Positions 40,160 through 57,612 of a stretch of DNA of 64,000 nt are shown one piece after another. The stretch spans positions 62,001 to 126,000 of the forward strand of contig RAYB01000002.1 in NCBI GenBank assembly GCA_003669055.1, in the 5' to 3' direction. The notes under the pieces are model-generated. The model was not told where the DNA came from, searched no databases, and was given only the letters and a program-made list of their open reading frames with translations. The stretch comes from a bacterium 1XD21-70. GTDB lineage: Bacteria; Bacillota; Clostridia; Lachnospirales; Lachnospiraceae. The first letter of the stretch is position 1; each line of letters opens with the position of its first letter. Made by a program: the position numbers and the translations under genes.

Positions 40160-41491
40160 TTACCCGTTGATGCTCCTGGCTAGTTCTGCTGCTGCCTGGC
40201 GGCAGTCTGCCATCTCCTTTGCCTCGTCTGCTACCAGGATCTCCCGGTCTTTCATCAGAACCTTCCCGTTGCAGACAGTGGCCTGCACCATCGTGCCGTT
40301 GACCCCGAACAGCAGATGGCCATTGATATTGCCCGCATCCAGAGGGGTCAGCGGGTCATAGGCAGCCACGATCACATCCGCCGCTGCCCCTTCCCTCAGC
40401 ACGCCCAGGGGGGTGTCAAAATAGCGGTTGGCAATCCGGGGATTCCCCTCAAACAGCATGGCCGGGATCTCACCCCAGGCAGCATTGGCATCGCAGAGGG
40501 AATGCTTGTGCAGCACATTGGCTACCTTATAAGATTCCAGCATGTCATGGGTGTATCCGTCCGTGCCCAGGCCGGTGAGGATGCCTTTCTTAAAAATCTC
40601 CATGGTCGGCGGGCAGCCGCAGGCATTCCCCATGTTCGATTCCGGGTTGTGCACCACCATGGTGTCCGTGGCCTTCAAAAGTTCCATCTCCTGCTCATTC
40701 ACATAAATGCAATGGGCTGTGATGGTCTTCTCCCCCAGCAGTCCGTGGTCCATCAGGCGGTTCACAATCCGCTTCCCATGCTTTTTCAGGCAGTCATGCA
40801 GATCCTCGATCCCTTCTGCCACATGGATATGTACGCCCACGCCCTCCGGCATCTCCTCCCGGCACAGGGCAAAGGTCTCATCGGAAATGGTAAACTGGGC
40901 ATGCATCCCCATCATCGCTTTTTGCATATCCTCCTTTCGGGAAAGGGTATAGCGGATGAAATCCGCATTCTCCTTTATGCCGGCCCGCGCCTTGTCTTTG
41001 CCGTCCCGGTCAGAGACCTCATAGCAAAGGCAGGTCCTCACCCCCAGCTTCCCTGCTGCCTCCGCAATCCGAAACAGGCTGCCCTCAACAGAGCCAAAGC
41101 TGGCATGGTGGTCAAAGACTGTGGTCACCCCGTTTTTGATGCAGTCTATATAGGTAGCCATGGCGCTGTGCCAGGTCTGGCTAAGCGTCAGGTGGCGGTC
41201 AATCGTCCACCACATCCCGTCTAAGATATCAAGAAACCCCTTCGGATTGTATCCGTTGATGGACAGCCCCCTGGCCATGGCGCTGTAGATATGCTCATGG
41301 GTATTGACAAAACCAGGCATGATCAGCTGCCCCTTGGCATCCAGCCGCTCTGCCTGGGGGTATTTCCTTTTTAGTTCCTCAAAGCCCCCTACCTCCCGGA
41401 TCACTTTCCCGTCCAGCACCACCCCTCCGTCCTGAACCAAGGGATTTTGGGCATCTCTTGTGACTACAGTGCCCTTTCCTACAAGAATCAT
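40160..41491 (-). CDS. ssnA: Putative aminohydrolase SsnA
   Basis: 443 residues of the amidohydrolase superfamily. Metal ligands are visible as MPGFVNTHEHIYSAMARG, VHIHVAEG, TAHCIYVNEQE and GLGTDGYTHD. SsnA proteins accompany YgfK and molybdenum hydroxylases and are assigned hydrolytic deamination or ring opening in purine use; the exact reaction is not settled. It is the first gene of the leftward operon, with a TTGACA-17-TACTAT promoter, two A/T palindromes upstream of it and a TetR-like site over the start of transcription. ATG 41491 has GGAGAAG upstream. Confidence 0.88.
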   Translation of the reverse strand: MILVGKGTVVTRDAQNPLVQDGGVVLDGKVIREVGGFEELKRKYPQAERLDAKGQLIMPGFVNTHEHIYSAMARGLSINGYNPKGFLDILDGMWWTIDRHLTLSQTWHSAMATYIDCIKNGVTTVFDHHASFGSVEGSLFRIAEAAGKLGVRTCLCYEVSDRDGKDKARAGIKENADFIRYTLSRKEDMQKAMMGMHAQFTISDETFALCREEMPEGVGVHIHVAEGIEDLHDCLKKHGKRIVNRLMDHGLLGEKTITAHCIYVNEQEMELLKATDTMVVHNPESNMGNACGCPPTMEIFKKGILTGLGTDGYTHDMLESYKVANVLHKHSLCDANAAWGEIPAMLFEGNPRIANRYFDTPLGVLREGAAADVIVAAYDPLTPLDAGNINGHLLFGVNGTMVQATVCNGKVLMKDREILVADEAKEMADCRQAAAELARSING

Positions 41492-41577: not shown

Positions 41578-41606
41578 ATAGTAATACATTTTATTTTTAT
41601 TGTCAA
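41578..41606 (-). promoter_or_regulatory. ssnA operon promoter
   Basis: On the minus strand TTGACA (41601-41606) and TACTAT (41578-41583) are 17 bp apart. Confidence 0.7.
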
Positions 41607-41616
41607 TAGCAAAATC

Positions 41617-41653
41617 TAAAAAATATTTTTTATACTAAAATATTTTTAGTATA
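41617..41653. promoter_or_regulatory. Paired A/T palindromes upstream of the ssnA promoter
   Basis: TAAAAAAT-ATTTTTTA (41617-41632), followed on the minus strand by G as in TTTTTTAG, lies 10 bp upstream of the -35. TATACTAAAA-TAT-TTTTAGTATA (41631-41653) lies just behind it. The same arrangement, TTTTTTAG then about 8 bp then TTGACA, occurs at 55462-55490 before the YheO-like gene. Confidence 0.6.
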
Positions 41654-41697
41654 TCATGGATGGGCATGTAAGGCTCCTGTTTTATTTTTACGCAGAC

Positions 41698-41731
41698 AAA
41701 GCCCGGTCCCTTTTACAAAGGATCGGGCTTT
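41698..41731. terminator. Terminator between the purine and 8-oxoguanine deaminase operons
   Basis: AAAGCCCGGTCC (41698-41709) pairs with GGATCGGGCTTT (41720-41731), with one G-T pair. It lies just past the stop of the leftward gene at 41849. Confidence 0.65.
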
Positions 41732-41848
41732 TGCCAAATAATCATTCCCCAGCCCCTTTTTCGTAACCAAAAACTGGCAAATGATATCCTTAGAAACGTT
41801 ATATCAAATTTTCTGTGGCCCCACAGCCAGGAAAAAACAAATACTTTG

Positions 41849-43207
41849 TCAATAACGGCTCAAATAATGCTTCACAACCTCTCGACCTTTCACGATTTCC
41901 CTTTCCTCATCAATTCCGGCAAGCCTTCCGTGTTCCACAACAACCCTTCCGTTCACCACGGTATAATCTACAGCACCTTTGAATCCCACCGTACCAAGCA
42001 CAGATGCCACATCCTGGTCTGCACCTACCAGTTCCAGGCGGCTTCGCCGGATCAAAAACAAGTCTCCTGCCTTTCCTTGCTCCAGGCTTCCAATATCCTC
42101 CCTCCCCAGCACTTTCGCACTGCCTCTGGTAGCAATTTTCAGCAAATCATAGCCCGTCGGTGCAAGCTTGCTGGAATTCAGCCGGTGCAAAAGGAAAGCT
42201 ACCCTCAGTTCCTCCAAAAGATTGGAGCCGTCATTGCTCGCACTCCCGTCCACCGCCAGCCCCACCGGAATCCCCAGCTTTAACATATCCGGGACAGGGC
42301 AGATGCCAGATGACAATTTCATATTGGAAATCGGACAATGAGCCACTCCTGTTCCCGTTTCTGCCAATAACTTTAATTCTTCATCATTGAAATGAATCCC
42401 GTGGGCATACCAGACATCGTTTCCAACCCAGCCCATCTCCTCCATATATCCAAACGGACGTTTCCCGTATTTTTTAATAACATATTGCTCTTCATCCCTC
42501 GTTTCACAAAGATGGGTATGCAACCGCACCCCCAACTCCCGGGCCAGCACTGCTGACTGGCGGTATAACTCTTTGCTCGCACTAAACGGCGAGCAAGGCG
42601 CCAGGGCGACCATCCTCATGGAAAACTGCGACGGGTCATGGTATTTCTCCACGGCATTGCGGGAATCCCTTATAATCTCATCTACCGTCTGTACCACACT
42701 GTCCGGAGGAAGCCCCCCGTCCTTTTCGCTTAAATCCATACTTCCCCTGGAGGCATACATCCGTATGCCAAGCACCTTGGCTGCCATAAACTGGGATTCC
42801 AAAAACCTCACGGAATCCCCGCCGGGAAATACATAATGATGGTCAAAACAAGTGGTGCAGCCAGTTTTTAACAATTCTCCCATGCCTGTGAGGGAACTTT
42901 GGTAAATCACATCATGATCCAGGTTTTTCCAAATTTGGTATAGTGCTTTGAGCCAGCCAAAAAGTTCCTTATTCTGCACCTGCGGCAGATTTCGGCTAAA
43001 TGCCTGATAGAGATGGTGATGGGTATTGATCAGCCCGGGATAAACGATGCAATCCGAAGCATCAATCGTTTCCTCCGCCTGCTGTAATTCTCTGCCAATA
43101 TAGGTAATCACACCGTCACAAATGAGAATATTGGCATTTTCCCATATCAAATCATGATCATCGCAGGTCACAATGGCCGAAGCATTTTTTATCAATAAAC
43201 GGCTCAT
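41849..43207 (-). CDS. Probable 8-oxoguanine deaminase
   Basis: About 452 residues of the cytosine-deaminase-like amidohydrolases. The opening PGLINTHHHLYQAFSRNLPQ, then ELFGWLKALYQIWKNLD, is characteristic of 8-oxoguanine deaminases. Metal ligands follow as THLCET, YAHGIHFND and the Asp in AVDGSASND. The reaction would turn 8-oxoguanine into urate and ammonia, feeding the adjacent purine pathway. Other ring deaminations (isocytosine, atrazine-like) are alternatives. The ATG at 43207 follows AGGAGAAG. It is the third gene of an operon with an SLC13 transporter and an AssT-like protein, separated from ssnA by a terminator. Confidence 0.75.
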   Translation of the reverse strand: MSRLLIKNASAIVTCDDHDLIWENANILICDGVITYIGRELQQAEETIDASDCIVYPGLINTHHHLYQAFSRNLPQVQNKELFGWLKALYQIWKNLDHDVIYQSSLTGMGELLKTGCTTCFDHHYVFPGGDSVRFLESQFMAAKVLGIRMYASRGSMDLSEKDGGLPPDSVVQTVDEIIRDSRNAVEKYHDPSQFSMRMVALAPCSPFSASKELYRQSAVLARELGVRLHTHLCETRDEEQYVIKKYGKRPFGYMEEMGWVGNDVWYAHGIHFNDEELKLLAETGTGVAHCPISNMKLSSGICPVPDMLKLGIPVGLAVDGSASNDGSNLLEELRVAFLLHRLNSSKLAPTGYDLLKIATRGSAKVLGREDIGSLEQGKAGDLFLIRRSRLELVGADQDVASVLGTVGFKGAVDYTVVNGRVVVEHGRLAGIDEEREIVKGREVVKHYLSRY

Positions 43208-43224
43208 CTTCTTCTCCTCCCCGG

Positions 43225-44577
43225 CTATATTTGGATCAGGTTCCACCACGGAACCATAACTAATATAAAGAACAGGAAACTAGCCGCCAGCTTCATGCTA
43301 TAGATTTTGAAAAAATCTCTCATGGTAATCAATCCAAAAGAAAAAAACACCATAAAATAAGGCCATTCATAGGGAAGCAGAATCTGATCCGCCCCCTGGA
43401 TCATAGAATAATAAAGCATCAGCGGATTAATGGAAAGATCCATAGCCAGCCTGGTCAACGGCGCCGAAAAGGTAGCGGCAATCGCAAGAGGAGACATTAA
43501 AAAATTCATGACAAAAGCCAGCAGCCACGCACAAACCAGCACCATGGTATTGCCGCACCGGCTCATAAAAGGAACCAGCATGGAAGACAACCACGTTCCT
43601 ACCCCCAGCGCATTCGACACCTCACCGATGGCCATACAGCCTGCGGACAGGAAAACAAAAGCCCAGTTGACCTGTTCCACGCTTTCCTTGTTCCCAATAT
43701 TGATTCCTGGAAGAAACGAAATGCAGACAAATAACATCAATATCCAGGCCGGCTGTATGTTATGCAGGCTGTTGGTCACCAGGCAGAGCACCAGGGCAAT
43801 ACAAACCACCACAGCCCTTTTCTCCCTGGACGTCATCGGCCCCATGCCCTCAAGTTCCTTCTGAAAGAACACTTTTCCATTGATCTCCTTCTCCGCTTTC
43901 AAAAGCCTGGACACCATAAATACCACAAAAAACGCCCATGGCACTACCGGCAGATTGTGAAACAGATAACCGAGCCAAGACACAGAGACATCGGCCACTG
44001 ACATCCCAACGCTTTGGAACATGACGAAATGAGAACTGAAAAAGAAATACATGGGAATCGTGGCTCCAAAAAAGCCCGCCAGCATAATGCCAGAGGACTC
44101 CCTCGATTTCTCAAGCCCCAGCGCCTGGCACACGCTGTAGGTAATCAGAGCCATAGGAATCAATGCCTGGCCCGGAATAAACAGATTACATACCATCCCG
44201 GCAATCAGCAATGCATATAAGATCCCGTGGTAGGTGGCTCCGGATTTTATCACTCCCCAGTATGCCCCCCTTTTTAAAAGGCCTGTTCCGTTGAGGATGT
44301 TAGCCATGATCAATCCTCCGATCAGCATCCAGGGGTTGACGGTCAGCCAGGTAGAGAACGCCACCTTTGGCACCGCCAGGCCTGTAATAATATACAGCAA
44401 AGGAAACGCCAAGGACGGAACAATCATAGGTGTCAGTTCAAAAGCCATAACTGCAATTACAATCAGCGTAACCACAAAAAACAACCGCATCTGTGCCGTA
44501 AAGCTTTCACTGACCGGCACCAGCAAAATTAACAGAGGCAATAAAAGTGATGCCGCCCATTTGATACGTCTGCTCAT
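43225..44577 (-). CDS. SLC13/DASS-family anion transporter
   Basis: 450 residues with about 11-12 membrane spans. Features such as AFELTPMIVPSLAFPLLY, NPWMLIGGLIMANILNGTGL and the second-half SAGCMAIGEVSNALG and NFLMSPLAIAATFSAPL fit the divalent-anion:sodium symporter family. Substrates of relatives are dicarboxylates, sulfate or similar anions. The operon partners are an arylsulfotransferase-like protein and a purine deaminase, so a sulfated or acidic aromatic or heterocyclic substrate is possible. ATG 44577 follows AGGAGGGGGG. It is 17 bp from the next gene. Confidence 0.8.
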   Translation of the reverse strand: MSRRIKWAASLLLPLLILLVPVSESFTAQMRLFFVVTLIVIAVMAFELTPMIVPSLAFPLLYIITGLAVPKVAFSTWLTVNPWMLIGGLIMANILNGTGLLKRGAYWGVIKSGATYHGILYALLIAGMVCNLFIPGQALIPMALITYSVCQALGLEKSRESSGIMLAGFFGATIPMYFFFSSHFVMFQSVGMSVADVSVSWLGYLFHNLPVVPWAFFVVFMVSRLLKAEKEINGKVFFQKELEGMGPMTSREKRAVVVCIALVLCLVTNSLHNIQPAWILMLFVCISFLPGINIGNKESVEQVNWAFVFLSAGCMAIGEVSNALGVGTWLSSMLVPFMSRCGNTMVLVCAWLLAFVMNFLMSPLAIAATFSAPLTRLAMDLSINPLMLYYSMIQGADQILLPYEWPYFMVFFSFGLITMRDFFKIYSMKLAASFLFFILVMVPWWNLIQI

Positions 44578-44595
44578 TTTCCCCCCTCCTATTAT

Positions 44596-46482
44596 CTAAA
44601 CACTCCAATCTACACCCAAATCGTATTTTACTTCATCCACAATCAGATAGAGATGATACCGTCCGCTTAACCCTGTCTTGTTGACTGGCATCCATATCTT
44701 CCGGTCATCATGATCCAGATAAGTTGCCACACACATGGTAGAATTTGCCCCTCTTGCTGTAGATATATAATAATTGTGATTCTTTCCCTCCTCATCCTGC
44801 AAAACCAACATAGCCAGCTGGCCCTTTTCCAATCCGGCCGTCAAAATCAGGCGGTCTGTCTCTTCGATCAAAGTGATGTTATAGTCCTCCGGCACTGCTT
44901 TTTCTGATAAAACTACAGTGTCAATATCTGTACCGAATTCCTCTGTCTTGTTTAAACTCCCAAGCACTTTGCCAGATCCAAACTCCAGTTCGCAGGTATA
45001 CACAGGAAGCCTTCTCGCACGATAAAAGCTTGCGGGCAAATGCATTTCATACATTACTTTGTTGTCCTTTACCTCCACCGTTGCGGCATCCAGCCTGCAG
45101 GAGGGAGATGAAAAATCCAAAACCGTAGAAATCGTATCCGACGGCACCCCGTCGATCCAGCACATGCCGCCGGAATGGATCATATACCAGTTTTCCCCAT
45201 AATAAGCCACATTTGAGATATAAGGAGAAAAGAAATCACTGCCCCTCTCTTTTCCAAACTGCCAGATCTGCCTTACCGTCCGTTTTTCTTCATCGATCCG
45301 ATAGACCACGCCTCTGGAATAATTGTCTTTGGCAGCCAACCGCTTTTCCGGCCTCTTTGAACGATAATGCCCGTTATCAAATAAAAAGATATCTCCGTTG
45401 GGAAGCAAAGTGCAGGAATGGGGTTCATAAAACCATTCAAATTCTCCACCATCTTCTTCTGGTGTAAAGAAATACTTCTCTACCAGTTCCTTGGGCCAGG
45501 TATCCGGATCCCCCAGCAACCAAAGCAGTTTATCCTCCTTGCAGTCAATACAGGCAACCACCTCAGCAAACCGCCCTCCCAGCAGCAAACGATCCCTGGC
45601 CTCATCGTACCAGAGTGCATTGTTCCGATACCACCCGTAGGGTGTCCAGTCCGGCGACCCGGATACCTGTCCAGGATCCAGGTAATCCTTCAAATCCCAT
45701 TGCCTTTGAATCTCACCAGTGCTGCGGTCGATTAAAACACAGATATCTTCCTCTGTCCCCCCGCTCAGGTCGGAGGTCAGCACATAGAGATTTCCGTCCT
45801 TCCGCTCAAATTCATCATGGTGATAACCGTAGGGCAGCGTATACTCCCGGTATATTTTTCCGCTCAGATCCATTTCCATCAGTCCTGTCAAATGATAGGG
45901 CGGTGCATATAGGCGATAAGACCCCAGTAACAGCCTGCCATTTTGAAGCTGCCGTAAGTCAAAGCCTGTCACCGGAGTAAGATACCACCTACAGTCACCG
46001 CGGTAATCATAGGCCGCCGTCGCGGCTGCAGTAGAGGGGGAGACAAACATCCATTCCCCATCCAGATAGGAGGCTGTGGTTCGGATCGACACAGGCAGCT
46101 TCACATTGTCGTCAAGAGGCTCTGTCACAATAGAAAGAACTTGGCTTTTTCCATCCTCCAGGATCAGGACTACCTTGTTTTCTCTTCCTCCATATAGTCC
46201 GTAAACAGGGATGACATGGTGGGTTCTTTTGTCAAACCGGTGAACGAGATCCCCTTCCTTTTCCATTCCGCACACCCTTAGTGTCACTTGGCTTGGCTCC
46301 TTTGTCTCAAACATAACCAGGGCTGTCAGCGGGGCGATTCCATAAGGGTTCTGTTTTATGTAGGGATGGCTGAAGGTATAACTCCCTTGATGATATTCCT
46401 GTAAAAACTGCTCTTCCATCTCCTTCTGTTTTTCAATGATGTGCTGTTCTTTTCTGAATGCTACGTTTTGTTTCATCTCCAT
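44596..46482 (-). CDS. Arylsulfate sulfotransferase-like protein (AssT family), apparently cytoplasmic
   Basis: 628 residues with an N-terminal Ig-like region (to about 150) and a beta-propeller. Characteristic segments are YGYHHDEFERKDGNLYVLTS, then GRFAEVVACID, EPHSCTLLPNGDIFLFDNGH and YSRGVVYRIDEE. Family enzymes move a sulfate group from one phenol to another through a sulfohistidine, without PAPS. Which His is catalytic here was not resolved. There is no signal peptide, unlike the periplasmic E. coli enzyme, so it would act inside the cell. ATG 46482 follows AAGGAGAAGG. It is the first gene of the operon. Confidence 0.75.
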   Translation of the reverse strand: MEMKQNVAFRKEQHIIEKQKEMEEQFLQEYHQGSYTFSHPYIKQNPYGIAPLTALVMFETKEPSQVTLRVCGMEKEGDLVHRFDKRTHHVIPVYGLYGGRENKVVLILEDGKSQVLSIVTEPLDDNVKLPVSIRTTASYLDGEWMFVSPSTAAATAAYDYRGDCRWYLTPVTGFDLRQLQNGRLLLGSYRLYAPPYHLTGLMEMDLSGKIYREYTLPYGYHHDEFERKDGNLYVLTSDLSGGTEEDICVLIDRSTGEIQRQWDLKDYLDPGQVSGSPDWTPYGWYRNNALWYDEARDRLLLGGRFAEVVACIDCKEDKLLWLLGDPDTWPKELVEKYFFTPEEDGGEFEWFYEPHSCTLLPNGDIFLFDNGHYRSKRPEKRLAAKDNYSRGVVYRIDEEKRTVRQIWQFGKERGSDFFSPYISNVAYYGENWYMIHSGGMCWIDGVPSDTISTVLDFSSPSCRLDAATVEVKDNKVMYEMHLPASFYRARRLPVYTCELEFGSGKVLGSLNKTEEFGTDIDTVVLSEKAVPEDYNITLIEETDRLILTAGLEKGQLAMLVLQDEEGKNHNYYISTARGANSTMCVATYLDHDDRKIWMPVNKTGLSGRYHLYLIVDEVKYDLGVDWSV

Positions 46483-46608
46483 TTCCTTCTCCTTTTCTTA
46501 GTAAATAAAAACCTTCTGATTCTTTCAGCTATCCCCTTGCCCGCTGAATGTAATGTAACATAAATAAATCTTTAGCAACAACAGCCTGGACTTATAAACC
46601 ACGCCAAA

Positions 46609-46645
46609 AAAGCCTTACTGACTTTCTAACAATCAGTAAGGCTTT
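46609..46645 (-). terminator. Terminator of the Crp/Fnr-family gene
   Basis: AAAGCCTTACTGA (46609-46621) and TCAGTAAGGCTTT (46633-46645) form a perfect 13-bp stem, followed on the minus strand by TTTTTT. Confidence 0.85.
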
Positions 46646-46681
46646 GCCAACAATCTGTTTTAACAATTGTCCCATGCTAAT

Positions 46682-47377
46682 TTAATACTTCATATTTTTC
46701 TCTCCTAGATACTCTTCGATACCCTCCCTGTCCAAAATCACCAGCTGCCCGTTTTTACGGTCAATCAGCCCGTCCTCTTTCAGCTTTCCTATAATCTTGC
46801 CCACAGTAACCACATGAACCCCCAAATACCGGGCGATCTCCGCATTGGAAAAATACTTATCCAGCTTCCAGGCCCCCTCTGATAAATGGGCAAATTCCAG
46901 AAGCATCTCACACAAAATATTTGGCGTCCGGTTCTTCAGCATTTTACTATACCGGAAACAATGGCTCATGTTTATTTTGGCCGTGCTGCGCACCTGCTCC
47001 ACCAGGATCTCCGGGTTCTCAAACAAAAATTCCAGCACCACCCGAGGTTCCAGACGATAAAGCACACATTCGCTCTTGCTAACGGAATCATAGATATGGC
47101 AAACCGTGTGCTGTACCGAATTTTTTAGGCTGGGAACCATATTGTAAAGCTGAAAAATCCCTAATAATTCCCCCTGCTTGTGGTAGCGGAAAACACGTTC
47201 ATCCCCATCCTCCATCAAGTCCACAAGGGCGATGACCCCCTTTTCCAAGTAATAGACATATTCCAGCTTCTTTTGGGAATCCACCACCCGGGTTCCCTTC
47301 CCCACATGAATCCTTGTTCCCTGCCTCAGTAACTCCCGGTAGTCCCCTACCGCCTTCTGATACCATGAACCATGCAT
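46682..47377 (-). CDS. Crp/Fnr-family transcriptional regulator
   Basis: 231 residues. The cyclic-nucleotide-binding-like barrel covers residues 15-125 (YVYYLEKGVIALVDLMEDGD, LLGIFQLYNM) and the C-terminal winged helix has NAEIARYLGVHVVTVGKIIG. It lacks the N-terminal cysteine cluster of Fnr. The effector is unknown. A strong terminator separates it from the AssT operon, whose upstream region contains a TGTTACATTACA string that might be its site; this is speculative. Start ATG 47377 has a weak GAGG about 11 bp upstream. Confidence 0.82.
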   Translation of the reverse strand: MHGSWYQKAVGDYRELLRQGTRIHVGKGTRVVDSQKKLEYVYYLEKGVIALVDLMEDGDERVFRYHKQGELLGIFQLYNMVPSLKNSVQHTVCHIYDSVSKSECVLYRLEPRVVLEFLFENPEILVEQVRSTAKINMSHCFRYSKMLKNRTPNILCEMLLEFAHLSEGAWKLDKYFSNAEIARYLGVHVVTVGKIIGKLKEDGLIDRKNGQLVILDREGIEEYLGEKNMKY

Positions 47378-47482
47378 TTAATCAATAACCTCTTCCACTG
47401 GCTTGCTTTTCACTGCAGATCCTGCAATGACCATTGCCGCATAAGAACTCCCGGCGATGAGTAGGTTAAGTCTCCCAATCCC

Positions 47483-49165
47483 TTACTTTTTCTCCATCCC
47501 GCACTCCGTGCACATCCCTGCCACGGCAGCCGCGTCGGCCTGGTCCTTTACCATCATGTCATAGAAGCGGTATCCGCCGGACAGGTTCCATGTCCTGGCG
47601 CCTGCCTGGTCTAAAATCCGCTGCGCCAAATAGCCCCTGAGGCCAATCTGGCAGGTGATATAGATATCCTTGGCCAAATCCAGTTCCCCCATGCGCTCCC
47701 GCAGGCTGTCTAAGGGGATATGGATAAATCCCGGGATCATCCCCCCTGCAACCTCCTCGTCCGTGCGCACGTCCAGCCGTATGGCATCCTCCGGGATCTT
47801 GTCCAGGTCTTCGATATAGAAGGGCCTCATCACCCCTTCCAGCACATTGCCGATCACATACCCGGCCATATTCACCGGATCCTTGGCTGAGGAGAAGGGC
47901 GGTGCATAGGCCAGTTCCATCTCCTGTAAGTCATAGCCTGTAAGGCAAAAACGCACGGCATTGGCCAGGTCGTCGATACGCTTGTCCACGCCCTTGCCGC
48001 CCACAATCTGGGCACCCAGGATCACCCCCGTCTTCGGGTCAAACAAGGTCTTTACCGTCATCATCTCGCCGCCCGGGTAGTATCCGGCCTGGGAGGCTGA
48101 GGTAGTGACCACCTTCCCATAGGGGCGCCCCTGCGCTGCCAGGCTCTCCTCCTTCTCCCCGGTCACTGCCACGGTCATCCCAAAGAACTTCATGATCGAT
48201 GTCCCCTGGCTCCCCTTATAGGCAACCCGCTTGCCGCAAAGGTTGTCACCCACGATCCGGCCTTGCTTGTTGGCCGGGGACGCCAGGGGGATCAGCACCT
48301 GCCTGCCGCTGACCACATGGTTCACGGCCACCGCATCCCCCAGGGCATAGACATCCGCCTCTGAGGTCTCCATGAATTCATTTACCAGGATTTCCCCTCT
48401 CTGCCCCAGCGAAATCCCGCTGCCCTTCAAAAACCCGGTATCCGGGCGCACGCCGATGCTTAAGATCACCATGTCTGCCAAAACCTTGGTGCCGTCGCTT
48501 AACACTACCCCTTCCCTGTCCATAGCCGTGCAGGTCTGCCCCAGATAGAGACGGATTCCCTGGGCACGGATATAGTTATGCACACCATGGGCCATATCCA
48601 TGTCAATAGGCGGCATGACGTGGGCAGCGCCCTCCACCACCGAAACCCGGATCCCCCGTTTTGCCAGGTTCTCCGCCATCTCCAGGCCGATGAACCCCGC
48701 ACCGATCACCGCACAGGTTGCCGGTTTTTCCTTCTCCACATAATCGTGGACGGCATAGGTGTCAGGAATATTCCTCAGCGTAAACACATGGTTTTCCTCC
48801 ATCCCCAAAATAGGCGGGCGTACCGGCCCGGCCCCTGGGGACAGGACCAGTTTGTCATAGCTTTCCTGGTAAGTCTCCTCTCCATGTCTCACGGTAACGC
48901 TTTTTTCTTTGGTGTCCACAAAGGTGACCTCGCTGCCGACACGCACATCCACACGGAACCGGTCATGGAAACGCTCCGGTGTCTGAACCTGAAGCGCCCC
49001 CTTGTCCGTAATGACTCCCCCCACATAATAGGGCAGCCCGCAGTTGGCGTAAGAGATATAATCCCCCCGCTCCAGCATAATAATCTCTGCGCTTTCGTCA
49101 TTCCTGCGCAGCCGTGCAGCCGTACCGGCTCCGCCGGCCACGCCTCCTACAATGATAACCTTCAT
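47483..49165 (-). CDS. CoA-disulfide reductase-type FAD enzyme with C-terminal rhodanese domain
   Basis: 560 residues. An FAD motif (VIIVGGVAGGAGTAARLRR), the redox-active cysteine in YANCGLPYY (about residue 43) and an NAD(P) motif (CAVIGAGFIGLEMAENL) identify the NADH oxidase/CoA-disulfide reductase family. From about 460 a rhodanese domain carries its cysteine in ITCQIGLRG. The tail CTECG adds two more cysteines. Likely activity: NAD(P)H-dependent reduction of a persulfide or CoA disulfide, which fits the C-S lyase in the same operon. ATG 49165 follows AAGGAG. Confidence 0.85.
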   Translation of the reverse strand: MKVIIVGGVAGGAGTAARLRRNDESAEIIMLERGDYISYANCGLPYYVGGVITDKGALQVQTPERFHDRFRVDVRVGSEVTFVDTKEKSVTVRHGEETYQESYDKLVLSPGAGPVRPPILGMEENHVFTLRNIPDTYAVHDYVEKEKPATCAVIGAGFIGLEMAENLAKRGIRVSVVEGAAHVMPPIDMDMAHGVHNYIRAQGIRLYLGQTCTAMDREGVVLSDGTKVLADMVILSIGVRPDTGFLKGSGISLGQRGEILVNEFMETSEADVYALGDAVAVNHVVSGRQVLIPLASPANKQGRIVGDNLCGKRVAYKGSQGTSIMKFFGMTVAVTGEKEESLAAQGRPYGKVVTTSASQAGYYPGGEMMTVKTLFDPKTGVILGAQIVGGKGVDKRIDDLANAVRFCLTGYDLQEMELAYAPPFSSAKDPVNMAGYVIGNVLEGVMRPFYIEDLDKIPEDAIRLDVRTDEEVAGGMIPGFIHIPLDSLRERMGELDLAKDIYITCQIGLRGYLAQRILDQAGARTWNLSGGYRFYDMMVKDQADAAAVAGMCTECGMEKK

Positions 49166-49195
49166 TCCAAATTCACTCCTTTTCTCTCCACATTA

Positions 49196-50380
49196 CTACA
49201 GGTAATGAGGCGTATTGGGAGTAAGGATCTCACATCCCGTCTCCGTGATCAGCACCATATCCTCGATATTAAACCCATTGATCCCGCTGATGTAGCAGGG
49301 CACCTCCATCGCCAGCACCATCCCCGGCTCCAAAAGCCTTGTCTCCGTGGCATTGATATAGGGCGCCTCCGCCGTGGCCGGCCCCATGCTGATGGAATGT
49401 CCCTGGTGGCCTCTGCGGTAGGAAGGGAACCTCTCCTTCACATAATCATAAGCCGCATGGTACAGTTCATGGATGGGTATGCCCGGCTTTGCGGCGGCAA
49501 TCATCCTCCTCTGGCCTTCATAGAGGGTATCCTTTAACCGAAACAGCACCGGGTCGGCATTGCCAATCACCCAGGCCCTGGAAGTATCCGTAGTGTAGAA
49601 ATCAAACTCCGCATTGACCCCGGCATCGAATTTGACCACGTCCCCGTCCTTAATGACCCCATCTTCCGGAATCGTCAGGCGGGAACCGGAAGCGCCGGTG
49701 GAGAACATCGACCAGGCACTGGGCACACAGAACCCGGATTTGATCACATCTTCCCGGAAGCAGTCTGCCATCTCCCTCTCGGACACGCCGATTCCCACCA
49801 TCCGGCTCACCTGGGTAAACCCATGGTCTGCAATCCGGCAAAGGTCACGGAACATCTGGATTTCCTCCTCCGTCTTGACACTGCGGGCATACACAAACAG
49901 GTCCGAGATGTTCACAAACTCTGCCTCCGGAAACTTCTCCCTCAGCTTATTATAATACGGCACAGGCAGATAATCCAGTTCCACGCCGATTTTTTTGTCC
50001 GCCAGGTCACATTCTTTTACAAACCTCTCCAGCTTGTCATCCGAACTGACCAGGCACCCCTTGTCTGGCAGCACCACGGAATCTGCAATCTCCGGCCAGG
50101 TCTTAAGCCCCACCCAGGTATCATAGGGATCCACCACAAACCCCAGCCCGGCTGCCCGGATCTCAAAGGTGGCGGCCTCAAAATCCATGGTCGTAATGTG
50201 GGTCGGCACCTGGTCATCCGCCCTCATGACAGCCAGGGTAAACCCCGGCTGCCTGGAAACAATATGCTGATGCCCTCCAAAACCCGTCACATAATGAAAA
50301 TTCTCCGGTGAGGATACGATGGCTCCGTCCAGCCCCCGTTCCTTCAAAAACTCCTTAATCCTCTTCTCCTTTGGCTGCAT
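49196..50380 (-). CDS. M24-family aminopeptidase (Xaa-Pro type)
   Basis: About 394 residues. The N-terminal creatinase-like domain is followed by the pita-bread catalytic domain with metal ligands in VKFDAGVNAEFDFYTTDTSR, GHQGHSISM, and the Glu of AMEVPCYISG and FNIEDMVLIT. Such enzymes free the N-terminal residue, often before proline, or cleave creatine-like amides. In this operon with AbgT and MalY it may release amino acids from imported peptides or conjugates. The ATG at 50380 follows AGGAGAGG; upstream codons to 50434 lack a ribosome site. Confidence 0.85.
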   Translation of the reverse strand: MQPKEKRIKEFLKERGLDGAIVSSPENFHYVTGFGGHQHIVSRQPGFTLAVMRADDQVPTHITTMDFEAATFEIRAAGLGFVVDPYDTWVGLKTWPEIADSVVLPDKGCLVSSDDKLERFVKECDLADKKIGVELDYLPVPYYNKLREKFPEAEFVNISDLFVYARSVKTEEEIQMFRDLCRIADHGFTQVSRMVGIGVSEREMADCFREDVIKSGFCVPSAWSMFSTGASGSRLTIPEDGVIKDGDVVKFDAGVNAEFDFYTTDTSRAWVIGNADPVLFRLKDTLYEGQRRMIAAAKPGIPIHELYHAAYDYVKERFPSYRRGHQGHSISMGPATAEAPYINATETRLLEPGMVLAMEVPCYISGINGFNIEDMVLITETGCEILTPNTPHYL

Positions 50381-50492
50381 AACACCCTCTCCTTTTCTAT
50401 GTAGGAAATCATTTTTACAACAAGCCTTTCCCAAGGCTTTCTGCTCGGAACCCTTTTATTCGGCACCCGCACCCGGCAAGGGACATGCCCCA

Positions 50493-52037
50493 TCAATAGA
50501 ACATCGGTGACCCCGGCCCTAAAGGCAGCTTTAACAGGTACCATGCCGCGAACATGATGATCCATCCCACCAGGAAAGCCAGCGAGTAGGGGAGCATGGT
50601 AGAAATCACGCTTCCGATCCCGGCTTTTTTGTCATACTTCTGGAAAAAGGCAACCGTCAGCACGAAAAACGGCATCAGGGGCGCAATAATGTTGGTGCTG
50701 GAATCACCAATCCGGTAGGCAACCTGGGTCAGTTCCGGCGACAGGCCGAGCCGCATAAACATCGGCACAAAAATCGGGGCCATAATCGCCCATTTGGCAG
50801 AGTCAACTGCAATGAAAATGTTGATAAACGCCGTCAGCACGATGAAGCAAATCACCAGGGGAAGCCCGGTAAATCCCACGGATTCCAGGAAATTCGCACC
50901 TGATACGGAAATGATCGTACCTAGGTTGGAGTAATTAAAGCATGCCGTGAACTGCGCCGCAAAGAAAATCAGCACCATAAAGCTGGCCAGCCCGCTGATC
51001 GTCTTATTCATCAGCGCCACCACATCCTTATCATTCTTGATCGATCCTGCCCCGATACCATAGGCCAGGCCAGGAAGCAAAAACAGAAGCATCATAAAGA
51101 AAATAATTCCGCTCATAAAAGGAGAACTCAGGAAGGAATGGGTCTCCGGATTCCTCAAAAGCCCGTTCTGCGGAACCACCAGCACTGCCATCAGTACCAC
51201 ATAAGCCAGCGCCGTAATCCCTGCCCAGCGCATGCCCCTCTTCTCGTTCTCACCGATATCCTGAACCTCCTCCGAGGCATCCGGCACATAAGGGGCGAGG
51301 CGCGGTTCAATAATTTTGTCCGTGACCAGCGTACCAACCGCGGTGATCAGGAAGGTGGACGCCACCATGAAATACCAGTTACATACCGGGAGCACGTTGT
51401 AGCCCGGGTCAATCATCTGCGCCGCCTGGGTAGACATGCCTGCAAACATGGGGTCATTGGTGCCAATCAGCAAATTGGCGCTCCAGCCGCCGGACACCCC
51501 GGCAAAAGCCGCCGCCAGACCAGCGATGGGATGGCGCCCGAAAGCCATAAACAGGATTGCCCCCAAAGGCACCAGCACCACATATCCCGTGGAGGAAGCG
51601 ATATTGGACATAATGCCCAAAAACACCACCACGGCTGTCACAAATGCCTTGGGCGTGGAAGCCGCTACCTTGCGCAGCAGCGCAGACATAAAACCAGTCC
51701 CGTCCGCAACACCGACACCGATCATAATGGTAAACACAGTCCCAAGAGCAAAAAATCCGGTAAAATTACTTACTACGGTTGTAACCATATGCCGGATGCT
51801 GTCCGGCGCCAGCAGATTGACAGCCGCAACCGTGGTCTGGGTGATCTCCCCCTTTGAACTGTCCAGATAGTCATAAGTCACAGACACGCCGCATGCCGCA
51901 CAGACAGCAGACAGGATAACCACCACCCCCGTGAGAATCAAAAAGATGGTTGCCGGGTTGGGAAGCCCGTTCCCTACCTTTTCCACTGTATCCAAAGCCC
52001 GGAGTATAAACCCCTTTTTTGTCTTTTCCTTTGTCAT
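50493..52037 (-). CDS. AbgT-family transporter
   Basis: About 514 residues with around 12 membrane spans. It opens TVEKVGNGLPNPATIFLIL, the hallmark of p-aminobenzoyl-glutamate transporter relatives. GTNDPMFAGMSTQAAQMIDP and AVDSAKWAIMAPIFVPMFMR, then AYRIGDSSTNIIAPLMPF, match the paired re-entrant motifs. The family moves p-aminobenzoyl-glutamate or, in some members, exports sulfonamides. Here it likely imports a peptide-like substrate for the neighbouring peptidase. ATG 52037 follows GGAGGG. A perfect CCGCCTGG/CCAGGCGG hairpin lies upstream at 52103-52124. Confidence 0.87.
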   Translation of the reverse strand: MTKEKTKKGFILRALDTVEKVGNGLPNPATIFLILTGVVVILSAVCAACGVSVTYDYLDSSKGEITQTTVAAVNLLAPDSIRHMVTTVVSNFTGFFALGTVFTIMIGVGVADGTGFMSALLRKVAASTPKAFVTAVVVFLGIMSNIASSTGYVVLVPLGAILFMAFGRHPIAGLAAAFAGVSGGWSANLLIGTNDPMFAGMSTQAAQMIDPGYNVLPVCNWYFMVASTFLITAVGTLVTDKIIEPRLAPYVPDASEEVQDIGENEKRGMRWAGITALAYVVLMAVLVVPQNGLLRNPETHSFLSSPFMSGIIFFMMLLFLLPGLAYGIGAGSIKNDKDVVALMNKTISGLASFMVLIFFAAQFTACFNYSNLGTIISVSGANFLESVGFTGLPLVICFIVLTAFINIFIAVDSAKWAIMAPIFVPMFMRLGLSPELTQVAYRIGDSSTNIIAPLMPFFVLTVAFFQKYDKKAGIGSVISTMLPYSLAFLVGWIIMFAAWYLLKLPLGPGSPMFY

Positions 52038-52102
52038 TCCATTTCCCTCCGTTTGTTTCCGATACGCCCTCGTGGGCACTCGTCATTTTTTCGTGTCAAA
52101 TT

Positions 52103-52124
52103 CCGCCTGGACTTGCCCAGGCGG
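52103..52124 (-). promoter_or_regulatory. Intercistronic hairpin between malY-like and abgT-like genes
   Basis: CCGCCTGG (52103-52110) and CCAGGCGG (52117-52124) form a perfect 8-bp stem with a 6-nt loop and no T-run. It may stabilise or attenuate the polycistronic message. Confidence 0.45.
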
Positions 52125-52127
52125 CGG

Positions 52128-53297
52128 TTACCTCGCGTCCACAGCCTCCTTCAGCTGCTTTAGCGCCTGCCTCAGCACGTTGCGGGAACAGGCAGCATTT
52201 AGGCGCATAAACCCGGACAGGCTCCGCCCGAACGACCACCCCTCATTGAGGCCCAGGCCAGCCTTCTCGATCATAAATGCCCTCAGTTCCTCATTTTCCA
52301 TCCCCAGTTCCCGGCAGTCCAGCCATACTAAGTAGGTGGCGTCCGGGACATTTGGCTTGATCTGCGGGATATGCTCCTGGCAGTAATCCCGGATAAAGTC
52401 AAAGTTGCCGGAAATGTACTCCAAAAGTTGCTCCAGCCACTCCTCCCCCTCGTTGAAGGCAGTCTCCATCGCAATGGAACTGAATGCGTTGTTGCGGTGG
52501 ATATCCAGGCTGAACCAGAATTTGTCATATATATCCTTTAACTCCTGGTTGGGGAATACCACCGCAGATGCCTGAAGCCCCGCCATGTTAAATGTCTTTG
52601 TCCCGGAGATACAGGTGATCACATGGGCGGCAATCTCCGGCGATAAGGTTGCCGTCGGGATGTGGGTCTTTCCATGGAACACCAGATCCGAGTGGATCTC
52701 GTCCGACACGATCTGCACCCCGTTTTCGATACAGATCCCGCACATCCGCACCAGCTGCTCCCTCTCCCACACTATGCCCAGGGGATTGTGGGGGCTGCAA
52801 AGGAAAAATAGCTTTGCCTCCTTGGCCTTTTTCTCAAAATCCTCAAAATCAATGACCCACTTCCCGTCCTTTTCTACCATCGGGCATTCCACGACCTGCC
52901 GCCCCCAGCTTTCCGTCACATCATAGAACTCCGAATATACCGGTGTCTGGATCAGGACCTTTTCCCCTGGCTTTGTGAACAAATGGACCATGGAAGAAAG
53001 GGAAGGCACTACCCCTAAGCTGAAGCTGATCATCTTCTTGTCAATCTCCCATCCATGGCGGCGCTCCTGCCACCCGCACACAGCCTCATAGTAGGAATCA
53101 GGCCGGGAAGTATACCCCCAGATCCCTTCTTCTGCCCGCGCCTTCAATGCATCGATGACAGGCTGTGCCGTCTTAAAATCCATATCTGCGATCCACAGGG
53201 GGATCACATCCCTGGCACCGAATTTTTTCTCCCTCTCATCATACTTGGCCGAGCGGTTGCCATTGCGGTCAATGACCTCATCAAAGTTGTACTTCAT
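52128..53297 (-). CDS. MalY/PatB-type PLP enzyme, probable cysteine-S-conjugate beta-lyase
   Basis: About 389 residues of class II aminotransferase fold. The PLP lysine is in SGTKTFNMAGLQ. Other motifs are IPLWIADMDFKTAQPV at the N-terminus, SPHNPLGIVW and SDEIHSDL. MalY/PatB members cleave C-S bonds in cystathionine or cysteine conjugates, giving thiol, pyruvate and ammonia. It heads an operon with AbgT transporter, peptidase and disulfide reductase, behind the only sigma-54 promoter seen in the window. I use ATG 53297 with GGGAG 7 bp upstream; a GTG six bases earlier is possible. Confidence 0.86.
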   Translation of the reverse strand: MKYNFDEVIDRNGNRSAKYDEREKKFGARDVIPLWIADMDFKTAQPVIDALKARAEEGIWGYTSRPDSYYEAVCGWQERRHGWEIDKKMISFSLGVVPSLSSMVHLFTKPGEKVLIQTPVYSEFYDVTESWGRQVVECPMVEKDGKWVIDFEDFEKKAKEAKLFFLCSPHNPLGIVWEREQLVRMCGICIENGVQIVSDEIHSDLVFHGKTHIPTATLSPEIAAHVITCISGTKTFNMAGLQASAVVFPNQELKDIYDKFWFSLDIHRNNAFSSIAMETAFNEGEEWLEQLLEYISGNFDFIRDYCQEHIPQIKPNVPDATYLVWLDCRELGMENEELRAFMIEKAGLGLNEGWSFGRSLSGFMRLNAACSRNVLRQALKQLKEAVDAR

Positions 53298-53353
53298 GCT
53301 CACACTCCCGTTCCCTGCCGCTTGCAGCAGTTATTTTTTCACTTGATATTACC

Positions 53354-53370
53354 CGCAAATTTGATGCCAA
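53354..53370 (-). promoter_or_regulatory. Sigma-54 (RpoN) promoter
   Basis: On the minus strand TTGGCATCAAATTTGCG matches TTGGCA-N6-TTGC, with GG and GC exactly 10 bp apart as sigma-54 needs. It lies about 57 bp before the malY-like start codon and about 90 bp downstream of the sigma-54 activator gene. Confidence 0.8.
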
Positions 53371-53415
53371 AAAAAGAGGACGTATTTCTTTGTTTTTTTA
53401 TCCATACATCCCCTG

Positions 53416-53452
53416 TTTTTTGGTTTATTTGGTTTTAAAGTTATTATTTGGT
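53416..53452. promoter_or_regulatory. Candidate enhancer repeats for the sigma-54 activator
   Basis: TTATTTGGT occurs at 53425-53433 and 53444-53452 (19 bp apart), with a related TTTTTTGGT at 53416-53424. They lie 46-98 bp upstream of the -24 element, close for an enhancer but possible. Confidence 0.35.
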
Positions 53453-53459
53453 CAAAGAT

Positions 53460-55334
53460 TTACACCCTCTCCTCCCACATCCTTCTTCCGGCCAAGGTAA
53501 TCCTGCTGCCCCCTCTCCCTTTCCCCACCTTCGCCAGCCCCTGGGCAGCCATCTGCTCTAAGATGTCCCGGACCTCCCTCTGGGACAGGGGGATATGGCT
53601 GTCCCTGGCATTTTTCAGCATAGCCTCACGCCCGATGAATTCCCCTTTCTCCGAGGCCAAGTACATCTGCTCTAACACATACCAGAATTCCCGGCTCTCC
53701 TCCCCACCCTCCTTGGGATGCTTCCGGCCTGGCGCCGCCTCCTCCTTCCCCTCCCGCAAAAGGCCGGCCTGGAAGGTCGGCGGGAGATCCTCCGGGCCGA
53801 TCACGCTTTGCCCTGTAAAGCTTAGGTATTCCACCACATTTTGCAGTTCCCGGATATTCCCCGGCCAGGGATAGCAAAGCAGAGCCTCCCGGACCTCCTT
53901 TGACAGTTCAAAGCTGCCGCCTAACCTCCTCCTAAAATCCTCCAATAAAAACAGGATATCTTCCCCCCGCTCCCGCAGCGGAGGAATCAGCGCCGGCAGC
54001 GCATTGAGCCGGTAATACAAATCCCGGCGGAAGCTTCCCTCCGCCACCTTCTCCTCCAGCGACTCATTGGTGGCTGCCACAATACGCACATCCACGTTGA
54101 TCATCTGGTTGCCTCCCACCCGCATGATCTCCTGCTCCTGGAGGACGCGCAGGAGTTTCACCTGCATGGCCGGGCTCATGCCCTCCACCTCATCCAAAAA
54201 CAAAGTCCCCTTGTGGGCAAACTCAAAAAGCCCCGGCCTCCCGCCCTTCTTTGCCCCGGTAAATGCGCCTTCCTCATAGCCGAACAGTTCACTCTCGAGC
54301 AGGTTCTCCGGCACGGCCGCCACATTGATGGCCACAAAAGGCCCTTTGCTGCGCCTGGAGGCATGATGGACTGCATGGGCCAAAAGTTCCTTTCCCGTGC
54401 CCGTCTCCCCGATCAAAAGCACCGGAGACTCTGTTTTTGCCATCCTCGTTAGGATCTCCTTCGTCCTGCCGATCGCCTGGGAACGCCCGATCACGTCGTC
54501 AAAACAATATTTTGCCCTGTAGCCCTTGTGGAGCAGCTGGCTGCGCAGTTCGTTCTGGCGCCGCTCCAGTTCATTGAACCGCTGAAGCGTGGCAAACGCC
54601 CCGATGCACTCCCCCCGCTCGTTCACCCCCACCATCCCCTCATCCAGGATCTCAATCAGGATATCGAACCGGCTTTCCAGCTGCCGGGAACGCTTAAACA
54701 TCTGCTCAAAGCTATAATTGCCCGGGGCGAGGGATTTCATATAATTCTGGAAACGCCTTTCCTCCAAAAGCCTCTCCAGCCCCAGGCGCAGGGCAGCTTC
54801 GATGATTGTGGCCGGCGTGCATGGCCGGTGCCCGATATTGAGCACCTTCTCTATCCCCTGGGGCACAAAGCTGGCCTCATCGGGCGTCACCGCCATATCA
54901 ACCTCCCCCCAGGCTGCACACGCCTCCTCCTCCGACAACGCCAAATCCGGCCCATAGGCTTCAAAATGCAGCTGGTTCACCCCCAGCTGCTCTAACTGTG
55001 TCACCGACTCCCTTGCCATCTGGCTGCTAATATTTACAAACAGCACCCGCGTCCCCTTGGGGATCTTTTTCAAATCCCGCACCACATCCTTGGCATAAGT
55101 CAGCTGTATTTCCACCACCTGCCCCTCCGAGGGCACATACTGCCTGGTCTCCTCCGCCTTAAAAGCATCCGTGGACACCACATACAGGTCCGAAGGCTCA
55201 ATCCCCTCCACCGATCCGTCCCCTGTGCTGTAAGCCCGCACCTCCGCCAGTTCCCCAAAAATATCCTGGAACTGCCCCGCATAAAACCTGACTGACCTGG
55301 GAACCAGCGTAATCACCGATATTTTTTTCTTCAT
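53460..55334 (-). CDS. Sigma-54-dependent transcriptional activator with PrpR-like sensor domain
   Basis: About 624 residues. An N-terminal PrpR-type domain (to about 200) and a PAS-like linker are followed by the AAA+ domain, with Walker A GETGTGKE at 309-316 and the sigma-54-contacting loop GAFTGA at about 356. The C-terminus has no Fis-type helix; it ends in a winged-helix-like region ([20 protein letters not shown]). It resembles YgeV of the E. coli purine cluster. Immediately downstream lies a sigma-54 promoter, so its main target is probably the malY operon. ATG 55334 follows GGGAGGG. A -10 TATAAT with TGt extension (55377-55382) suggests its own promoter. Confidence 0.86.
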
Positions 55335-55441
55335 GCAGCCATCCCTCCCTATCCTGCAAAAGCCAAAATAATTTTTATTATAACAAAAACTGCCCGGAAA
55401 TTTCCACCCCCTTTTCCCCACGCCATTCTGCCGAGTCTATT

Positions 55442-55476
55442 CTAAAAATATTTTTTCAAACCTAAAAATTTTTTAG
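55442..55476. promoter_or_regulatory. Paired A/T palindromes upstream of the YheO-like gene
   Basis: CTAAAAA-T-TTTTTAG (55462-55476) and the weaker CTAAAAATATTTTTT (55442-55456) lie upstream of a TTGACA -35. The spacing and sequence mirror the ssnA upstream region at 41617-41653. Confidence 0.6.
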
Positions 55477-55484
55477 TTTTTCTA

Positions 55485-55512
55485 TTGACATCTCATTTTT
55501 TTCTGGTATGAT
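55485..55512 (+). promoter_or_regulatory. Promoter of the YheO-like gene and ygeX
   Basis: TTGACA (55485-55490) and TATGAT (55507-55512) are 16 bp apart, preceded at 8 bp by the palindrome CTAAAAATTTTTTAG. Confidence 0.7.
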
Positions 55513-55547: not shown

Positions 55548-56213
55548 ATGAAACTGCCCTTTTTAAAACAGATGGCCAGAGCCCTTTCCGTCCAGTTTGG
55601 CAGAGACTGCGAGATCGTCATCCACGACCTGACCAGGAAGAGCCTTGGCAAGTCCATCGTATATGTGGAGAACGGCCATGTCACCAACCGGAAGGCCGGG
55701 GACGGCCCCTCCCAGATCGTGGTCGAGACCATGAAGAAGGATCCGGCCAGAATCCAGGACCATCTCGGCTATCTGACCCGCACCGCTGACGGCAAGACCT
55801 TAAAGTCCTCCACCGTCTTCGTCCGCGACGAAAACAGCGGGGCGGTAAGCTATATCTTTTCCATCAATTACGACATCACCAACCTTCTCTACCTGCAGGA
55901 CTCCATCCATTCCCTGATCAGCGAGAACATCCGGGAGGAATTATCCTGCCATGAGAGAACGGCGCCGAGAAAGATCCAGACCAACGTGGCTGACATTTTG
56001 GACGACCTGATCGCCCAGTCCGTAGCCATGGTGGGCAAACCGGCCTCGCTGATGTCCAAGGATGAGAAGGTCGAGGCCATCCAGTTCCTCAACCGCTCCG
56101 GTGCTTTTCTTATCACCAGGTCCGGTGATAAGGTATCCCAGTATTTCGGGATATCCAAGTACACATTATATAGCTATATCAAAGCAGAACCGGCCCAGGA
56201 GGAGCATCTGTGA
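55548..56213 (+). CDS. YheO-like transcriptional regulator (PAS-like domain plus helix-turn-helix)
   Basis: 221 residues. The N-terminal YheO/PAS-like domain is clear (DCEIVIHDLTRKSLGKSIVY, GYLTRTADGKTLKSSTVFVR). The C-terminal DNA-binding part follows, with VEAIQFLNRSGAFLITRSGD and VSQYFGISKYTLYSYIK. Relatives include DauR, an activator of amino-acid catabolism, so a small-molecule sensor is likely. It is the first gene of the rightward purine operon and likely binds the A/T palindromes in front of itself and of ssnA; this is inferred. ATG 55548 has GTGAGGAA upstream. A GC-rich hairpin (56244-56260) separates it from ygeX. Confidence 0.82.
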   Translation: MKLPFLKQMARALSVQFGRDCEIVIHDLTRKSLGKSIVYVENGHVTNRKAGDGPSQIVVETMKKDPARIQDHLGYLTRTADGKTLKSSTVFVRDENSGAVSYIFSINYDITNLLYLQDSIHSLISENIREELSCHERTAPRKIQTNVADILDDLIAQSVAMVGKPASLMSKDEKVEAIQFLNRSGAFLITRSGDKVSQYFGISKYTLYSYIKAEPAQEEHL

Positions 56214-57564: not shown

Positions 57565-57573
57565 ACAAGTAAT

Positions 57574-57593
57574 TTGATTGATTAATCAAACAA
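57574..57593. promoter_or_regulatory. TetR-type operator upstream of ygeY
   Basis: TTGATTGA-TTAA-TCAAACAA. It keeps the GATTGA-N4-TCAA core of the other two sites with three differences in the outer positions. It ends 19 bp before the ygeY start codon. Confidence 0.5.
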
Positions 57594-57612
57594 ATACAGG
57601 AGGTATTTTCTT

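Follow-up and report, generated by a model that had tools for sequence, protein, structure and literature searches.

Two arms with one promoter module

How can two arms of a gene cluster that lie about 14 kb apart be switched together? The question is raised by a stretch of 64,000 nucleotides (nt) from the Lachnospiraceae bacterium 1XD21-70 (contig RAYB01000002.1, positions 62,001 to 126,000), referred to below as the window. In it a set of purine degradation genes is divided into an arm on the minus strand, opening with ssnA, and an arm on the plus strand, opening with a gene for a YheO-like regulator (yheO). Each of the two first genes is preceded by a module of 49 nt, at 41601–41649 (minus strand, module A) and 55442–55490 (plus strand, module B), made up of a pair of A/T palindromes and the −35 box of a promoter. 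In the reading developed here the window modules would be two copies of one two-way operator.

Aligned in register, with the distal palindrome at one end and the −35 box at the other, the modules are identical at 36 of 49 positions. Module A with its promoter reads CTAAAAATATTTTAG-T-ATAAAAAATATTTTTTAG-ATTTTGCTA-TTGACA-N17-TACTAT, and module B reads CTAAAAATATTTTTT-CAAAC-CTAAAAATTTTTTAG-TTTTTCTA-TTGACA-N16-TATGAT. The gap between TTTTTTAG and the −35 box is 9 nt long in A and 8 nt in B, with CTA closing both; the first base of the proximal palindrome of A, on the side toward the distal palindrome, is imperfect. An earlier note on this DNA had described the same order of palindrome, T-rich gap ending in CTA and TTGACA at both arms, with a second A/T palindrome further upstream; all of these elements are present at both arms (Table 1).

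Table 1. Positions of the modules, promoters and genes at the two arms
Feature	Position in window	Strand	Remark
Module A distal palindrome CTAAAAATATTTTAG	41635..41649	−	profile score 16.5
Module A proximal palindrome ATAAAAAATATTTTTTAG	41616..41633	−	15-nt core, profile score 12.7
ssnA promoter −35, TTGACA	41601..41606	−	
ssnA promoter −10, TACTAT	41578..41583	−	spacer 17 nt
Module B distal palindrome CTAAAAATATTTTTT	55442..55456	+	imperfect; profile score 13.2
Module B proximal palindrome CTAAAAATTTTTTAG	55462..55476	+	perfect about its centre; profile score 19.8
yheO promoter −35, TTGACA	55485..55490	+	
yheO promoter −10, TATGAT	55507..55512	+	spacer 16 nt; same spacer in 25 relatives with a promoter on this side
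TetR-type box TTGATTATTCAATCTAA	41556..41572	.	just downstream of the ssnA −10
ssnA	40160..41491	−	first gene of minus arm; NF005540 and TIGR03314 above cut-off
YheO-like regulator (PAS_6 + HTH_22)	55548..56213	+	candidate binder; PF08348 and PF13309 above cut-off
Intervening genes between arms	41849..55334	−	~14 kb, other catabolic genes

The likeness compared with chance

With A+T contents of 78% and 69%, the two promoter stretches of 120 nt have a composition that favours chance resemblance. Against this stands a shuffle test in which the best ungapped 49-nt identity between the two stretches was compared with that of dinucleotide shuffles (n = 1000): the real identity of 36 was reached by none of the shuffles, which had a mean of 25.4 and a maximum of 32. 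Nineteen other A/T-rich segments of the window, taken on both strands, gave at most 30 identities with A and at most 29 with B. In the bacterium's own assembly (4,313,375 bases in 137 contigs, 96.7% complete) the exact palindrome CTAAAANNNTTTTAG is confined to the two module sites. With one mismatch allowed it occurs at seven places, versus 63 for a backwards control pattern, and the palindrome is thus rare in the assembly. The pattern AAAANNTTTTN{5,14}AAAANNTTTT matches the two sites alone (with a gap of 7 at A); this count by itself is unremarkable, because the backwards control also gives two matches. A third genome match, CAATAAATTTTTTAG at G000:C55:202568 (G numbers denote genomes, G000 being the window's own, and L numbers yheO loci), is not a palindrome; it was put down to chance, with the list of open reading frames as the sole further check.

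Finally, a profile built from 30 relatives, with omission of the three whose YheO is at least 70% identical to that of the window (L003, L004 and L005), scored A at 28.5 bits and B at 32.2 bits, and in 1000 shuffles of either region these values were never reached. The earlier note would have given up its claim if the motif were equally common in unrelated A/T-rich regions; this was checked, and the result favours the motif. With the shuffles, the absence of the exact palindrome elsewhere in the assembly and the conservation in relatives described below, chance resemblance is already contradicted, and we give it practically no weight.

The operator in relatives

When named genomes were searched with the YheO-like protein as query, 51 loci emerged. 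ssnA is the divergent neighbour of yheO in 32 of these, and L004, where the ssnA start only is present and was read by eye, adds a 33rd; an adjacent ssnA was not found in the remaining 18. A palindromic 15-nt profile trained on the 33 divergent regions holds 15.6 bits, and the operator consensus is approximately YWMAAAAWTTTTKWR, two A/T palindromes of 15 nt each. The centres of the pair are 18 bp apart in 19 of the 33 regions, 20 bp apart in nine and otherwise spaced in five. By the full profile, the pair is present in 29 of the 33. Promoter-like −35 and −10 boxes lie on both sides, 7–10 bp outside the palindromes, in 25 of these 29 (the chance rate of such box matches was not computed), and the unit is therefore described as a symmetric control region facing both ways. 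All 25 promoters directed towards yheO have a 16-nt spacer, and in 15 of them the −35 box is TTGCAA. The window fits the operator definition, that is, two 15-nt palindromes with centres 17–22 bp apart, standing 7–10 bp from a −35 box.

The 450 bp preceding yheO contain a pair scoring at least 22 in 33 of the 51 loci, and most of the 33 belonged to the training set of the profile. Elsewhere in these loci, 871,469 other bases contain two matches of this strength, both directly upstream of ygeX (L039:18025 and L040:18034, Blautia-type loci in which ygeX lies 8 kb from yheO). When loci with a YheO at least 85% identical were omitted from the profile, 27 of the 33 intergenic regions passed versus 2 of 1980 shuffles; the 85% limit removed none of the window's own relatives, hence the separate profile without L003, L004 and L005 used above. 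Approached from the other gene, 34 loci among 54 genomes with ssnA had flanks, and 23 of the 34 carry a pair scoring at least 20 within 450 bp.

These comparisons bear on whether the stretches simply serve strong promoters as UP elements or through A-tract curvature, with no dedicated protein. The pair does resemble an UP element in its A/T richness, in its position upstream of the −35 box and in its closeness to the UP-element consensus. It differs in its dyad symmetry with C/G-flanked ends, its narrow spacing and its cluster-specific occurrence: the C/T and A/G flanks, the symmetry and the 18/20-bp spacing recur across relatives, composition-matched shuffles seldom match (the 2 of 1980 mentioned above), and the pair is absent before ssnA in all seven genomes that lack a close yheO. 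Together these features argue for a protein site rather than a plain UP element, an explanation that we consider very improbable; the stretches may have an additional UP effect.

In the Enterocloster-type loci L010, L011, L016, L017 and L018, inspection by eye showed a different palindrome (like ACAGGANNTCCTGT) in the interval that separates the pair from ssnA, close to the region where ssnA starts.

Split arms and control in trans

The window departs from the layout of its relatives, with ssnA and yheO 14 kb apart and a pair of palindromes of its own at each arm. The two genes are neighbours in the close relatives L003 (YheO 81% identical), L005 (72%), and G309 and G074 (70–71%). Within the genus, ssnA is present in five of 24 genomes, which are also the five with a close ortholog of yheO, and the genes are apart solely in the genome of the window; pair scores in the genus include 31.6 (G015), 29.0 (G014) and 25.0 (G002). 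Given the neighbouring genes in close relatives and a split unique in the genus, the window most likely represents a derived state of the cluster. Since both arms bear both palindromes, a cut between the palindromes is insufficient to explain them, and the operator was probably copied, unless one pair arose anew. Because 14 kb of other genes part the arms and each of them bears the pair, control would be exerted in trans.

A survey of 299 genomes of the family (ssnA at E ≤ 1e-100, yheO at E ≤ 1e-45) detected ssnA in 50 and yheO in 45: 43 genomes have both, seven ssnA only, two yheO only and 247 neither (Fisher p = 4.8e-42, in a test that ignores relatedness). The 43 genomes with both genes comprise 27 with divergent neighbours (at most 729 bp between matches), five with a separation of 1.7–5.5 kb and 11 with the genes 14–215 kb apart or on different contigs. 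The five intermediate genomes have the pair next to yheO (29.7–33.2), and it is absent directly before ssnA. Five of the 11 widely split genomes, that of the window included, have retained the pair on their ssnA side: G000 (29.2), G156 (33.8), G161 (32.6, with yheO 215 kb off), G100 (23.1) and G048 (37.1, the pair sitting between divergent ygeX and permease gene before ssnA). The corresponding scores on the yheO side are 33.0, 20.6, 20.0, 23.9 and 18.5. The pair is absent from the seven ssnA-bearing genomes that lack a close yheO, with a best score of 8.4 over 2.0–5.1 kb upstream; the two genomes with yheO only are divided, G303 having a pair (25.4) and G231 none (−2.6).

The candidate regulator

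That one regulator serves both arms, as the earlier note had proposed, is strongly supported by the comparative data. The best-supported binder is the YheO-like protein, also the candidate of that note, because yheO recurs beside the site, the site precedes yheO in 33 of 51 loci and none is found in the seven genomes with ssnA only. The further word 'activator' did not stand in the same way: the geometry fits it, but Cj1387c, the one experimentally studied relative found, is described as repressing its neighbour. That the two modules answer to one two-way operator in relatives was out of reach for a note made from the sequence alone.

The protein combines a PAS_6 domain (PF08348, 110.7 bits, cut-off 27) with an HTH_22 domain (PF13309, 68.6 bits, cut-off 29.6), and its structure model has a predicted PAS-type domain followed by a helical C-terminal domain. 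A Foldseek search with the whole model returned LOV/PAS proteins as the best matches, with low TM-scores (0.3–0.4 by query), and a sequence search of solved structures gave no relative. A likeness of the helix-turn-helix (HTH) domain to Fis was unsupported, Fis being absent from the best 50 matches of the fold search. The same genome encodes three PAS_6 paralogs, none of which is preceded by a pair (8.9, 7.8 and −10.9).

On this evidence the YheO-like PAS_6/HTH_22 protein probably binds the operator. It would do so as two side-by-side dimers, one pair of palindromes taking both, with centres mostly 18 or 20 bp apart and a putative sigma-70-type promoter 7–10 bp outside each palindrome. The PAS domain would sense a ligand, and the protein would control its own operon, yheO-ygeX-ygeY-ygeW-carbamate kinase, together with the ssnA-ygfK-hydantoinase operon. 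A shared operator bound by YheO, whichever the sign of control (and hence overlapping with the repression discussed below), is judged likely.

An alternative is that YheO is a mere neighbour and that the pair is bound by another regulator, whether an A/T-binding protein of global action or one of the window's own sigma-54, Crp-like and TetR-type proteins. The gene for the sigma-54 activator adjoins module B, and the motif does not co-vary with the HTH of YheO, both of which speak for such a binder. Homologs of the sigma-54 activator (E ≤ 1e-150), however, occur in only four of the 299 genomes, the window's own included, and no homolog turned up in the stretches taken from the 51 named loci. 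The sigma-54 −24/−12 consensus (TGGCAYNNNNNTTGCW), with at most one mismatch, had four matches in the window versus 6.4 expected, and with so few homologs sigma-54 control was set aside. Among the 51 stretches, of which several break off early, a tetR gene was met in L004 and L005 alone, and the TetR-type protein has a separate box that suits it. The reach of a global factor should not stop at this cluster, whereas the two matches outside the yheO upstream regions, in 871,469 bases, are both at ygeX. We regard another binder as unlikely.

Several observations weigh against YheO and the pair as a fixed partnership. Upstream of yheO, 18 of the 51 loci fall below the threshold; L038, L041, L043, L049, L050 and L047/L048 show nothing like the pair, and neither do the second yheO copies L182 and L183. 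L047 and L048 have divergent ssnA and yheO without a real pair, in an intergenic region that looks G/C-rich, and G023, a member of the genus with the divergent layout, scores 11.6. In five of the 11 widely split genomes the ssnA arm has no pair (G107 10.7, G111 13.4, G190 −2.7, G208 15.1 and G263 5.0, where the contig ends 1.8 kb upstream of ssnA), and in G159 the arm is borderline (19.7, with the contig edge 253 nt away). On the yheO side, for which all of the 11 but G159 gave a score, the five negative genomes have −4.9 in G107, which thus has no pair before yheO either, and 18.7, 28.6, 18.3 and 22.6 in G111, G190, G208 and G263, respectively; even among the splits that keep the pair, the yheO-side scores of G156, G161, G100 and G048 are modest. 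A fold search with the HTH domain yielded nothing convincing among solved folds (best E 0.6). Among orthologs the HTH sequence does not co-vary with motif strength, since the recognition regions of several motif-less loci nearly match those of motif-bearing ones. The absence of the pair in the genomes with ssnA only is supportive and not decisive, because their SsnA proteins are distant (47–59% identity), which confounds phylogeny with the absence of yheO.

Activation or repression

The palindromes end 8 bp (B) and 9 bp (A) upstream of the −35 boxes, a position that fits activation as well as competition for the UP region. If transcription starts about 7 nt past the −10 box, the sites of B would occupy approximately −43 to −77, in the area of UP elements, so that unliganded YheO might cover the A/T-rich UP region contacted by the alpha subunits of RNA polymerase and release it when a purine intermediate appears. 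This repression variant, a sub-case of the shared operator, also agrees with the consensus −35 box, TTGACA, at both window promoters. It further agrees with what is described for Cj1387c, whose loss raises the level of the neighbour's protein and which its authors term a repressor, in the text available from PMC4519771; this relative counts against activation. On the other side, the sites stop 7–10 bp upstream of the −35 box and leave both the −35 and the −10 uncovered, and the yheO-side promoters of relatives, with TTGCAA in 15 of 25 and the invariant 16-nt spacer, would suit an activated promoter. We hold repression to be possible but doubtful; provided that YheO is the binder, the balance inclines towards activation.

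A second motif

The TetR-type box just downstream of the ssnA −10, which the earlier note had overlooked, has similar boxes, with two or three mismatches, at 34845–34866 (before the permease gene) and 57573–57594 (before ygeY). In total the motif gave five rows at three places of the window, versus 0.13 expected. As the box, too, occurs at both arms, it forms a second link between them in addition to the palindrome pair. Its 14-nt core, TTGANNNNTCAATC, is also found at ssnA in L003, L004, L005, L013 and L101 (G309); L003 has it before ygeY as well. The core is absent from L100/L130 (G074) and from all of the 47 remaining named loci (no match in 835,695 bases). The TetR-type protein encoded in the cluster (34966–35607) may bind the box, which perhaps provides a second, repressive layer.

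Genes of the cluster

The gene order is ssnA-ygfK-hydantoinase-tetR-NCS2 nucleobase permease in the minus arm and yheO-ygeX-ygeY-ygeW-carbamate kinase in the plus arm, ygeX encoding diaminopropionate ammonia-lyase. Seven genes (ssnA, ygfK, hydantoinase, ygeW, ygeY, ygeX and carbamate kinase) all score above their NCBIfam cut-offs; the permease passes the NCS2 model but, with 402 of the 414 bits required, falls short of the xanthine-permease model. Further to the left, the window also has genes for a selenium-dependent xanthine dehydrogenase and for the molybdenum cofactor. This is the gene set of anaerobic purine and uric acid degradation, as it is laid out in the available part of PMC12507026.

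The genes between the arms include, by Pfam, an amidohydrolase, a Na/sulfate-symporter-type transporter, a Crp-like regulator, an AbgT transporter and the sigma-54 activator; others were judged by eye to be sulfotransferase-like, pyridine-nucleotide-reductase-like, peptidase-like and aminotransferase-like. They had no tblastn match (E ≤ 1e-15) in the stretches of the 51 named yheO loci, save a 28% peptidase match in L019.

Two further observations concern other parts of the window. At 29759–30898, beside the xanthine dehydrogenase gene, there is an apparent fusion of a MocA-type nucleoside triphosphate (NTP) transferase with a ModE-type DNA-binding domain, with scores under the curated cut-offs, and a PreQ1 riboswitch is seen at 16718–16762 on the minus strand.

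Relation to known systems

The arrangement in the relatives recalls the LysR-type divergent layout, in which likewise the regulator gene is divergent from the target operon with a central operator. It differs in the regulator family and in having two symmetric palindromes, one per promoter, and the window differs again in having its own pair at each arm.

The closest studied protein is Cj1387c (CfiR) of the YheO/Cj1387c family, which has the same PAS_6 and HTH_22 domains as the window protein and controls an adjacent gene (PMC4519771, as far as its accessible text goes). According to the same part of that source, Cj1387c is linked to and represses a gene with an L-PSP domain, whereas yheO of the window stands in a urate cluster with a palindrome pair; the divergent promoters in relatives of the window yheO are a further difference. 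The main text of PMC4519771 does not contain the terms 'binding site', 'palindrom', 'gel shift' or 'electrophoretic'.

The window also shares ssnA, ygfK, hydantoinase, ygeX, ygeY, ygeW and carbamate kinase with the anaerobic (reductive) uric acid cluster of Escherichia coli and Clostridioides difficile, and in E. coli a native Crp site lies between ygeV and ygeW (PMC12507026). The words 'regulator', 'transcription factor' and 'YheO' are missing from the main text of PMC12507026. In the open-licence literature we found no DNA target for YheO-type regulators, and neither an operator of the urate cluster nor a YheO-type regulator of it.

Gut bacteria bearing this cluster degrade uric acid (PMC12507026), and the literature found says little on how the urate genes are switched on. 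We tentatively suggest, as a wider proposal that is somewhat less than an even bet, that the PAS_6 protein is a dedicated urate/purine switch across much of the family, sensing an intermediate and acting on a copyable operator that is retained at split arms, so that the regulon is held together in trans. With one candidate regulator and a concrete operator sequence, the switching of the urate genes becomes directly testable and, if the reading is true, YheO-type (PAS_6) regulators, which have been little studied, would gain a defined DNA target.

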